A DNA stretch of 64,000 nt, taken from the NCBI GenBank assembly GCA_013298775.1, contig JAAFIV010000004.1, forward strand, positions 1 to 64,000, read 5' to 3'. This document shows positions 1 through 3,399 of this stretch, one piece after another. The translations under genes and the position numbers were made by a program. Source of the DNA: Ignavibacteria bacterium. Its GTDB lineage: Bacteria > Bacteroidota > Ignavibacteria > Kapaibacteriales > UBA4661. Every line of letters begins with the position of its first letter. Position 1 is the first letter of the stretch. The notes beneath the pieces were generated by a model. That model had not been told where the DNA came from and did not search any database. It worked only from the letters and a program-made list of their open reading frames with translations.

Positions 1-203
1 GCCGCGCTGTGCCTGTTGCCGGAAGCCTTATCAATCCTGAAACCAAAGAGAAATTCAACGCTGACGTGAAGGCGGAATATGAGAAAATCCGCACGGATTA
101 TGCCTCGCGGCAATCGGAGAAGAATTTGTTGCCGATAGCGGCAGCAAGAAAGAATAAGCTGAATCTTTGGAATGGTGCGGTGAAGAAGATGGAGGCGGCG
201 TAA
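1..203 (+). CDS. metH: Methionine synthase MetH, 3' fragment of gene (B12-binding domain end; no activation domain seen)
   Basis: Frame open from window start; RAVPVAGSLI..VKAEYEKIRTDYASRQSEKNLLPIAAARKNKLNLW matches the linker after the cobalamin domain of MetH (DASRAVGV..; VRAEYEKVR..LAEARANRF..W). Stop TAA at 201-203. Confidence 0.75.
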   Translation, partial: RAVPVAGSLINPETKEKFNADVKAEYEKIRTDYASRQSEKNLLPIAAARKNKLNLWNGAVKKMEAA

Positions 204-1135
204 TGGCTATTCCTGGGCGCATAGAAATACCTCTTCCGTTATTAAAGGCTTTATCCGATGGCAAAGTTCATTCGGTCAATTCCATAATTGATGTATTAGC
301 TCAAGAATTCAGTTTATCATCATCGGAACGAATGCAGTCTGTACCAAGCGGCGCTCCTGTTTTTGATACTCGTATCCGTTGGGCGTTTGTTGACTTGAAA
401 ATTGCCAAGTTGTTATCCTCTCCATCTCGTGGTTATATTCAGATTACTGAACGTGGCATTGATGTACTGAGCAAATCGCCAGAGAAGATTGATAGCAAAT
501 TTTTAATGCAGTTTCCTGAATTTGAGCAAAAATTATCAGAAAAAAAACAAACTAAAGATTTGATAAATACGTTGCCAAAATCGGATAAACCCTATTTTGA
601 GCATCAAAAAGCTCCCGAAGAAATTTTTGAAGAAACTTATACCTTCGTTAGTGCTGCGCTTGTTGAAAATCTCTTGGAGCGAGTGAAACAAATCACTCCA
701 GCCCGTTTTGAACGTCTTGTGGTAGATTTGCTGGGCAAAATGGGCTACGGTGGCGCACTTTCCAATGCTGGCAGTATCACGAAACTAAGCGGTGATGAAG
801 GCATAGACGGTGTTATCAAAGAAGACAAACTTGGATTGGATATGATTTATCTTCAAGCAAAACGCTGGAAAGAAACAACCGTTGGAAGACCAGAAATACA
901 AAAATTTGTTGGCGCACTGGCTGGGCAAAAGGCTTCAAAAGGCGTATTCATTACAACTTCTGCTTTCACCAAAGAAGCACGTGAATACGCGGCAAATTTG
1001 CAGCAAAAAGTTGTTTTGATTGACGGCGAACAGCTAGCTGAATTGATGATTGAATACGACCTTGGCGTTTCAATTGCTCAAACATATCTCATCAAGCGCG
1101 TAGATAATGACTATTTTGACGAAAATCTTGATTAA
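203..1135 (+). CDS. mrr: Mrr-type restriction endonuclease (PD-(D/E)xK Mrr_cat)
   Basis: ATG at 203 overlaps the metH stop (TAATG). RFERLVVDLLGKMGYGG..GDEGIDGVIKEDKLGLDMIYLQAKRW..GRPEIQKFVGALAGQKASKGVFITTSAFTKEAREYA is the canonical Mrr catalytic domain; N-terminal winged-helix-like domain. Confidence 0.9.
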   Translation: MAIPGRIEIPLPLLKALSDGKVHSVNSIIDVLAQEFSLSSSERMQSVPSGAPVFDTRIRWAFVDLKIAKLLSSPSRGYIQITERGIDVLSKSPEKIDSKFLMQFPEFEQKLSEKKQTKDLINTLPKSDKPYFEHQKAPEEIFEETYTFVSAALVENLLERVKQITPARFERLVVDLLGKMGYGGALSNAGSITKLSGDEGIDGVIKEDKLGLDMIYLQAKRWKETTVGRPEIQKFVGALAGQKASKGVFITTSAFTKEAREYAANLQQKVVLIDGEQLAELMIEYDLGVSIAQTYLIKRVDNDYFDENLD

Positions 1136-1156
1136 CCATTTGGAAAGGAAAGAAAA

Positions 1157-1343
1157 ATGCCCGCCACCCTCACCGCCGTCTATGAGCGGCACGAAGACTG
1201 GTTTATCGGCTACGCCCAAAGAACTCTCTGGCGTAAACGTCCAAGAGGCAACGCTGGAAGAAGCCCGCGAGAGCTTGCGTGAAGCCGTGCAGCTCATTAT
1301 TGAAAGCAACCGTTTTTTAGCGCAACATCATTTTACTTGCTGA
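1157..1343 (+). pseudogene. HicB-family antitoxin remnant, split by a frameshift
   Basis: Frame from ATG 1157 gives MPATLTAVYERHEDWFIGYA, then a nonsense tail to TGA at 1280-1282; the frame ending at 1343 gives ELSGVNVQEATLEEARESLREAVQLIIESNR. Together they read as a HicB domain. RBS-like GGAAAGGAAAG precedes ATG. Confidence 0.7.
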
Positions 1344-1347
1344 CAAC

Positions 1348-2817
1348 ATGACCATCACCCTCAAAAACTTCGGTCCCATCAAAGAACTGACGATGGACTT
1401 GACGAAAAACCTACATTTGCTGTATGGCGAAAGTAGTGTGGGGAAGTCGTATGCGGCGTATTGTGCGTATTTGTTGGTAAGTAAGTTGCAAGAGCCGATA
1501 ATACGAAGTGGAAGGCATATTCTCCCAGAGGATAGTACCGTCGATACAACGCTTTTAGCGATGCTGAATAACGCACGAATACAAGGGCAAAATGAGGTCG
1601 AGGTTGGCTCATCTGAATTTTCTAGCTTATTTTTGGAAACCCTCGCAGAATCGCTACAGGATATTTTAGCCCCTTTGTTCCAAGCCACTTTTGGCAATCG
1701 CCTTGAAGAGCTAAATAATGAATATACTCATGGCTCTTTCTCGCTTTTACTTTCGACGGATATAGTGGAGTTAGTTTTTTCATCGCGGCACGAATTAGGA
1801 CCTTTACATTTAACCGGTTTTATTCCCAAAGTACCTATTGTTATTAAGCAAAGTCAGCAATCTAGCTCGGTTGGTGGTACAGTAACATTTGAAAATGGGT
1901 GTATTGTTGCAATATCACAAAGAACATTTTCTGCTCTTTTACGCAATTATATCATTCAATCGCTCGGCGCATCGTTACAATCTGTTAGTTCAAGAATGTA
2001 TTATCTGCCTGCTTCCCGACTAGGTTTATACAGAATGCACACGTCGTTTTCACCAATTATTGCCGAATTGGCAACTCGGCGTTTCGACTTACGCAGTTCA
2101 ATTAATTTGCCCTCACTAACAACACCAGATGCGGACTATATTCAACAACTCGCACAAATACAGACACATTCTGTAGCTTCACCACTGACAACACTTGCAG
2201 AACGTGTAGAACATGATATAATCAAGGGAACAATTCATTTTGAGGAGCAGACAAAACGAATCGTTTTTCAACCAAAGGATACCAATATCTGGCAAGATAT
2301 TTCTCATGTTTCCTCAATGGTTGCTGCGCTTGCGCCACTTGTGCTGTACCTGAAATATGTCCTCACAACGCCAAGACCACCACAATCACAATACCAAGAA
2401 TTACAGGAAGACGCTTCTCCGGCAGAAACAATTACATTTCAACAAAAAGCAATTTTCTTCATCTTTGAAGAACCCGAAGCACACCTCCACCCCACGGCAC
2501 AAGTCAAACTCATGGAAATCTTGGCAGAACTGACGAAATACAATGTGCGCGTGATGCTGACTTCGCATAGCGATTTTATGTTCAGCAAGCTGGGGAATTT
2601 AGTTTTAGGCGATACAATAGACGAAAAAGATATTGCCGTCTATCATCTTGTTATGACCGACGAAGGTAGTATTGATGCGGGCGATATGCACATTACAAAA
2701 CAAGAAATTCGTGAAACAAATTTTGCAGATGTTTCCGAAGGCTTGTACGATGAGCGTTTGGAGCTTATTGAGCAGATGAGAAACAAAAAGAAAGGCGTAT
2801 TGAATGGAGCTTCTTGA
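1348..2817 (+). CDS. AAA/ABC-type ATPase of OLD/AAA15-like class (putative defence ATPase)
   Basis: N-terminal KNFGPIKELTMDL, Walker A GESSVGKS, Walker B/glutamate AIFFIFEEPEAHLHP, H-switch LTSHSDFMFSKL. Confidence 0.85.
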   Translation: MTITLKNFGPIKELTMDLTKNLHLLYGESSVGKSYAAYCAYLLVSKLQEPIIRSGRHILPEDSTVDTTLLAMLNNARIQGQNEVEVGSSEFSSLFLETLAESLQDILAPLFQATFGNRLEELNNEYTHGSFSLLLSTDIVELVFSSRHELGPLHLTGFIPKVPIVIKQSQQSSSVGGTVTFENGCIVAISQRTFSALLRNYIIQSLGASLQSVSSRMYYLPASRLGLYRMHTSFSPIIAELATRRFDLRSSINLPSLTTPDADYIQQLAQIQTHSVASPLTTLAERVEHDIIKGTIHFEEQTKRIVFQPKDTNIWQDISHVSSMVAALAPLVLYLKYVLTTPRPPQSQYQELQEDASPAETITFQQKAIFFIFEEPEAHLHPTAQVKLMEILAELTKYNVRVMLTSHSDFMFSKLGNLVLGDTIDEKDIAVYHLVMTDEGSIDAGDMHITKQEIRETNFADVSEGLYDERLELIEQMRNKKKGVLNGAS

Positions 2818-3304
2818 AAAATTGCGTAACGACCCACGCCTCACCTTGTGCGCGAAATGCGAAGAAAACGGCGTAGATGTTGAGGTTGCGGCAGATATAC
2901 CGTATGTTCTTATCAATCCCGAAACCTATTACACCAAAGCAAATCCAGAAGAACGTCCCAAAATGGTGGATTGCTTCTTTGTACAGCATTGTGAAAATAA
3001 TGGCTACCATTTCACCATTGTTGAGTTGAAAAATCGCAGAATCAAAGTACAAGACGTTATCGAAAAATTTGAGCGATGTTTTGACCGCTTTATGACACAA
3101 GATTTTCCTGAATACTTTGACCGTGATTGTCCTATCAAGCTCTATCTTGTTTCGCAAGTCACCTTGGAATGGGAAGAAGAAAAACTCATAGGCGGCACAT
3201 ACACAAACAGAATGAAGGCGTTGATGAGTAACACATTTTCTTTTCGTGGCATACCGCTCAACATTGAGCCTAAAAATCCGACACCCATCATTCAACCGTG
3301 TTGA
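2804..3304 (+). CDS. Small partner protein with PD-(D/E)xK nuclease-like motif
   Basis: Overlaps the ATPase stop by 14 nt; KMVDCFFVQHCENNGYHFTIVELKNRRIKVQDVIEKFERCFDRF shows a D...(I/V)ExK pattern followed by a helix. Confidence 0.6.
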   Translation: MELLEKLRNDPRLTLCAKCEENGVDVEVAADIPYVLINPETYYTKANPEERPKMVDCFFVQHCENNGYHFTIVELKNRRIKVQDVIEKFERCFDRFMTQDFPEYFDRDCPIKLYLVSQVTLEWEEEKLIGGTYTNRMKALMSNTFSFRGIPLNIEPKNPTPIIQPC

Positions 3305-3399
3305 AATCATATTCACTATGAGAATCCAATCAGTACACCTAGAAAACTGAGCTGGTTCAATGAGAGAGATATGAGTTTTCACGCGGCTTCCGACCCATT

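Follow-up and report, generated by a model that had tools for sequence, protein, structure and literature searches.

Overlapping ATPase and Nuclease Genes of an Ignavibacteria Genome Form a Candidate Anti-phage Module with an Apparently Exchanged Nuclease

Gene Organization of the Locus

The window analyzed here, a stretch of 64,000 nucleotides of an Ignavibacteria genome, opens with the end of a metH gene, followed on the same strand by an mrr gene, a HicB/UPF0150-like orphan, an ATPase gene and a gene for a small partner protein (Table 1). A preliminary description of this DNA had proposed that the last four constitute an undescribed defense module; the coordinates, the ATPase motifs and the 14-nt overlap that it gave are all correct, and its interpretation is considered below in the light of the proteins, their relatives and the corresponding loci of congeneric genomes.

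Table 1. Features at the locus and their positions in the window
Feature	Position	Strand	Remarks
metH 3' end without activation domain; resident neighbor, outside the module	3..203	+	
Mrr-type restriction endonuclease; neighbor, outside the module	203..1135	+	Mrr_cat 4.5e-38, Mrr_N 1.2e-22; PADLOC mREase_IV 3.1e-78
HicB/UPF0150-like orphan, frameshifted; linked neighbor, not a conserved component	1157..1345 (about)	+	UPF0150 0.0077, below cut-off
OLD/AAA_15-type ABC ATPase, proposed sensor	1348..2817	+	489 aa; Walker A, Walker B, H-loop; AAA_15 profile; fold like PtuA and Rad50
End of ~93% DNA identity to congener G397; inferred 5' recombination breakpoint	2771	.	46 nt short of the end of the ATPase gene
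Small PD-(D/E)xK-type nuclease, proposed effector	2804..3304	+	166 aa; D56 (2969-2971), E74-x-K76 (3023-3031)
Fossil of a third gene	3313..3348	+	36 bp, 91.7% identity, E 1e-8, to the start of the ABC-type ATPase gene behind the G397 pair

The ATPase and Its Small Partner

The ATPase matched the Pfam profile AAA_15 at 2e-15, and its sequence contains a Walker A motif with K33 (GESSVGKS, 1426-1449), a Walker B/D-loop motif (FEEPEAHLHP, 2464-2493) and an LTSHSD motif, with R224 situated in PASR and H407 as the H-loop His. In the alignment columns of the close clade, K33, R224, E375 and H407 are invariant among the ATPases. No TOPRIM match was obtained in the ATPase or in the partner with the Pfam, NCBIfam and PADLOC profiles. 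The larger protein displays the residues of an OLD/AAA_15-type ABC ATPase (Walker A, a conserved Arg, the Glu of Walker B and the His of the H-loop) and is free of TOPRIM. Its predicted structure (pLDDT 75.8) matched those of PtuA and Rad50, and the C-terminus reached about 80 residues beyond the H-loop. The dN/dS ratio of the gene, calculated between the window and congener G397, was about 0.14, and the ATPase is under purifying selection.

The partner gene shares exactly 14 nt with that of the ATPase. Its product had no match of its own in Pfam, NCBIfam or PADLOC, a comparison of its sequence with solved structures returned nothing credible, and a tblastn search against plasmids and phages gave 0 matches. 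Residues D56, E74 and K76 were unchanged across 21 relatives, two archaea among them. The AF2 model of the partner reached a pLDDT of 88.5, and a Foldseek search of the PDB with this model found nothing strong (best E 0.046, TM ~0.3). The upper part of this weak list consisted mostly of PD-(D/E)xK nucleases, led by EcoO109I, EndoMS and Card1; further weak matches were Bse634I, Nt.BspD6I, BstEII and cap-snatching endonucleases, and TOPRIM proteins did not appear among the fold matches. An HNH nuclease of the PtuB type was likewise not found in the ATPase or the partner by profiles, nor in the partner model and its fold matches, in agreement with the earlier claim that the partner lacks TOPRIM and HNH motifs. 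The ATPase is thus adjoined by a small protein with D...ExK residues and a PD-(D/E)xK fold, the fold matches being weak and mostly of that class. These data back the ExK assignment first guessed from the sequence, and we conclude that the partner is probably a divergent PD-(D/E)xK nuclease.

Association and Distribution of the Two Genes

When 396 genomes of the phylum were searched with the partner alone, four matched, and the ATPase profile at E<1e-100 recovered exactly the same four, in all of which the two genes adjoin and overlap. At the genus level the pair was present in four of eight genomes and did not occupy one fixed place. The wider set comprised 80 ATPase relatives from a scan of GTDB species genomes, and an iterated partner HMM detected a partner directly downstream of the ATPase in at least 66 of them. 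Among close relatives this was the case for 17 of 19, the exceptions being one in-frame truncated fusion and one degraded locus, and among distant relatives for 49 of 61, five of them recognized once over-extended ORF starts were taken into account. All 73 partner-profile matches among 4,440 ORFs were located immediately behind an ATPase gene; because the profile was partly built from the same loci, this count is circular for those, which does not apply to the lack of matches at other places. The distances of ATPase and partner were correlated (r 0.43, Mantel p 0.0002), also without two close relatives (0.38, p 0.003); when single regions of the ATPase were considered, their co-variation with the partner was weak, spread out and uninformative. 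The ATPase and partner genes are a conserved operon across genomes and a real two-gene unit, as anticipated by the proposal that they make up a two-component system of their own.

The clade belongs mainly to Bacteroidota and also reaches Myxococcota, Pseudomonadota and Bacillota (Lachnospiraceae), and two archaeal loci (L033 and L087) show the same layout of an ATPase and a small ExK protein. In a Lachnospiraceae relative (L025:4992-6614), an in-frame fusion joins the ATPase to a nuclease that has lost its catalytic part and retains the C-terminal one, apparently a deletion remnant. The neighbors of 18 relatives were mostly ordinary genes, together with scattered defense genes (Wadjet, AriA-like, MADS) and integrases, and no clear defense-island enrichment was seen near these 18 loci, which were surveyed without a control set.

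The Neighboring metH, mrr, and HicB-like Genes

Because the window begins at the start of a contig (in a genome of 5.2 Mb), metH is visible as its last 66 codons only. The gene stops before the activation domain, which is encoded as a gene of its own on another contig (L091, G000:C67:95401-96219), and metH of congener G280 terminates at the same place. A disruption of metH by an insert is ruled out by these two observations; metH is split in the genus, with the B12 activation domain as a separate gene.

The identification of mrr was confirmed by matches to both Mrr domains (Table 1), and the HicB remnant was also correctly recognized, since a HicB/UPF0150-like homologue stands intact and in frame in the corresponding position upstream of the G397 ATPase gene; compared with this homologue, the copy in the window carries a frameshift. 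In contrast, the inclusion of Mrr and HicB in the module did not hold. In G280, metH on contig C110 is followed by an mrr gene 65% identical to that of the window and then by a methyltransferase gene, and the pair lies on a different contig (C51), behind an amidohydrolase gene. In G398, too, the pair is preceded by an amidohydrolase gene of this kind, and the HicB-like gene is absent upstream of the pair in both G398 and G280. These gene orders and the distribution of HicB indicate that mrr is a neighbor and that the cassette was inserted downstream of metH and mrr genes already resident there. A module of four genes, with Mrr and HicB acting alongside the pair, would agree with the tight same-strand packing in the window and with the linkage of the HicB-like gene to the ATPase in G397 as well, but is extremely improbable when no other pair locus carries mrr within the sequence examined and HicB is broken in the window.

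Elsewhere in the genus, the vicinity of the DOMON operon in G397 (L095:7305-10308) contains genes for an N6 methylase and possibly for a nuclease; G400 (L096) lacks both at the corresponding site, which is a variable spot for restriction genes in these two genomes.

Divergence of the Nuclease Gene between Congeners

The comparison of the window with G397 by blastn aligned positions 1143-2771 at 92.9% identity; the alignment stops there, and identity then falls to about 54%. The ATPases of the two genomes show 92% DNA identity and about 93% protein identity (dN 0.038, dS 0.275), and the nucleases 43% protein identity and about 53% DNA identity, with saturated synonymous sites. The reverse is seen between G397 and G398, whose ATPases are more distant (85.5% identical) and whose nucleases are nevertheless closer (67%). 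These comparisons come from draft genomes, the G397 contig (C611, L125) being just 3.8 kb long. Because selection at the protein level does not account for synonymous saturation beside an ATPase dS of 0.28, the data argue for recombination, indicating that, in the simplest reading, the nuclease gene of the window was replaced. The alternative, that the nuclease diverged fast under selection and no exchange took place, could be reconciled with an AU test of the deeper nuclease pair of the window and G280, in which a single clade was not rejected (p 0.245). We regard it as unlikely, since selection on the protein does not accelerate change at synonymous sites, identity drops abruptly at 2771, and the G397 and G398 nucleases resemble each other despite the greater distance of their ATPases.

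In the exchange by recombination, the last ~15 residues of the ATPase would travel with the nuclease, because the putative breakpoint precedes the end of the ATPase gene. The C-terminal end of the ATPase is EQMRNKKKGVLNGAS in the window, ERLNQQAEVA in G397 and ERLNEQAEIA in G398. A co-travelling tail would fit a role in docking the nuclease, although it is no proof of it. Downstream of the nuclease gene, the fossil of the third gene reads MRIQSxHLEN and then a stop. The corresponding ABC-type ATPase gene is intact behind the G397 pair (L125, from ~2383 onward in module orientation) and absent behind that of G398; to judge from the remnant, this gene is lost from the window.

What is new at this locus is that a close relative combines a nearly identical sensor gene with a different nuclease gene. 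We propose tentatively that the window pair represents a separate clade in which the nuclease and the last ATPase residues may be swapped as a cassette, so that one sensor could be re-armed with effectors that perhaps hit different targets. The window genome and G397 (ATPase 93%, nuclease 43%) amount to a near-natural experiment, which raises the question of whether the sensor chooses the triggering phage, the nuclease chooses what is destroyed, and the ATPase tail chooses the nuclease that fits.

Proposed Mechanism and Alternative Functions

A guide to function is WonAB, a two-gene system of an OLD-type ATPase and a nuclease from the Vibrio cholerae WASA-1 prophage, in which both genes, the essential ATPase residues (WonA K34, R182, E300 and H333) and WonB K71 are required (PMC12137116). 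Overproduction of WonB is toxic only with active WonA; its activation halts translation and leaves genomic DNA intact, and the C-terminal extension of WonA is the predicted binding site of WonB (PMC12137116). By analogy, we consider it probable that the ATPase and nuclease genes of the window form a two-gene anti-phage module, in which the ATPase would detect infection and license the nuclease to abort it. On the model of WonAB, the ATPase would dimerize, bind ATP and sense an infection cue. Its C-terminal tail would dock the small nuclease, as is predicted for WonAB, holding it stable and inactive until, on infection, the ATPase licenses it. The nuclease would then cut host nucleic acid, with tRNA or rRNA, by analogy with WonAB, a likelier target than the chromosome. 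This cleavage would abort the infection.

The same module could instead carry a nuclease that cuts DNA, either of the phage or of the chromosome, in the manner of Gabija or of restriction enzyme-like partners. DNA enzymes (EcoO109I, Bse634I and Nt.BspD6I) are indeed among the nearest solved folds of the partner, and the profile matches of its relatives weakly touch HSDR_N and TnsA-like domains. However, RNA-cutting PD-(D/E)xK endonucleases, the viral cap-snatching enzymes, are also among the fold matches, and activated WonB spares the genome and stops translation (PMC12137116), which makes a DNA target somewhat unlikely. If the two genes were a toxin-antitoxin or plasmid-addiction system, the nuclease being the toxin and the ATPase its antitoxin, their overlap and the presence of relatives on small ColE1-type plasmids with little other cargo would be accounted for. 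Against it, the ATPase is encoded upstream and has three times the size of the nuclease, and the toxicity of WonAB needs WonA and its ATPase activity, which according to the authors excludes simple sequestration (PMC12137116); we find this explanation quite unlikely. A housekeeping ATPase-nuclease pair acting in repair or in the cell cycle, as reported for the archaeal OLD protein Cran1, is very unlikely: not every OLD-family ATPase serves defense (PMC12796447) and the ATPase is under purifying selection, but presence is patchy (4/8 genomes in the genus and 4/396 in the phylum), position changes, the nuclease is apparently exchanged, relatives are plasmid-borne, and Cran1, by its description, combines ATPase and nickase in a single protein, unlike a pair of ATPase and nuclease.

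Comparison with Known Systems

The view that the pair is undescribed has to be given up, as the same architecture has been published as PD-T4-4 (PMC9519451), as WonAB (PMC12137116) and as the class "OLD-ABC ATPase + Novel REase." A search with the PADLOC models placed the window ATPase nearest to a known system and left the window partner unrecognized. The best model for the ATPase was PD-T4-4_A (5.8e-24, in a match split over three separate stretches), and an E. coli plasmid pair found through the window ATPase is squarely PD-T4-4 in both genes (A 3e-123, B 1e-43), an anti-phage system of E. coli (PMC9519451). PD-T4-4 pairs (L005, L099 and L102) reside on ColE1-type plasmids of 4-5 kb in E. 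coli and Klebsiella with nearly nothing else aboard. The window pair shares with PD-T4-4 the gene order and a partner with D...(D/E)xK residues. It differs from PD-T4-4 and from the PADLOC candidate PDC-M47 in the position of its ATPase, since in the ATPase tree, which is unrooted and has long branches, PD-T4-4 and PDC-M47-like proteins occupy one branch and the window clade another, both supported at 100/99. The window partner did not match the PD-T4-4_B and PDC-M47B models of PADLOC, which overlooks it because the clade is divergent; at most 3 of 21 partner relatives matched PD-T4-4_B, and weakly, and an hhalign comparison of the partner profile with PD-T4-4_B was not significant (E 0.066). 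The partner profile was linked to the distant archaeal/Poribacteria-type partners with a probability of 95.8%. A homology of the partner to PD-T4-4_B would thus rest on motif, position and this profile link.

With WonAB the window pair has in common a two-gene operon of a TOPRIM-free OLD-type ABC ATPase and a small PD-(D/E)xK nuclease. The counterparts of WonA K34, R182, E300 and H333 and of WonB K71 are K33, R224, E375, H407 and K76, matched by motif and not by alignment. The spacing of the first three differs (K33-R224-E375 here and K34-R182-E300 in WonA), as does the size of the nuclease, which has 166 residues here and 16.1 kDa in WonB, the two being likened by motif rather than by sequence alignment. 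The WonAB primer pattern was absent from the IMG/VR viral contigs.

The class "OLD-ABC ATPase + Novel REase," predicted by Krishnan et al. (2020) according to PMC12137116, occurs in 0.96% of bacterial genomes, with an example in Anaerovibrio of the Bacillota, as stated by the WonAB authors (PMC12137116). As far as its description in that paper goes, this class has the same architecture as the window clade, which also includes Bacillota (Lachnospiraceae), and the two may be the same group. PARIS, Gabija and Septu similarly pair a related OLD/Rad50-like ATPase with a nuclease, but that of PARIS and Gabija is a TOPRIM protein (AriB and GajA) and that of Septu an HNH protein (PtuB), both of which are absent from the window pair. 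We therefore file the window pair under the OLD-ABC ATPase plus PD-(D/E)xK nuclease kind, as neither PD-T4-4 nor proven WonAB. Its nuclease escapes the PADLOC 2023 models, and the clade to which it belongs extends a little-studied defense architecture.
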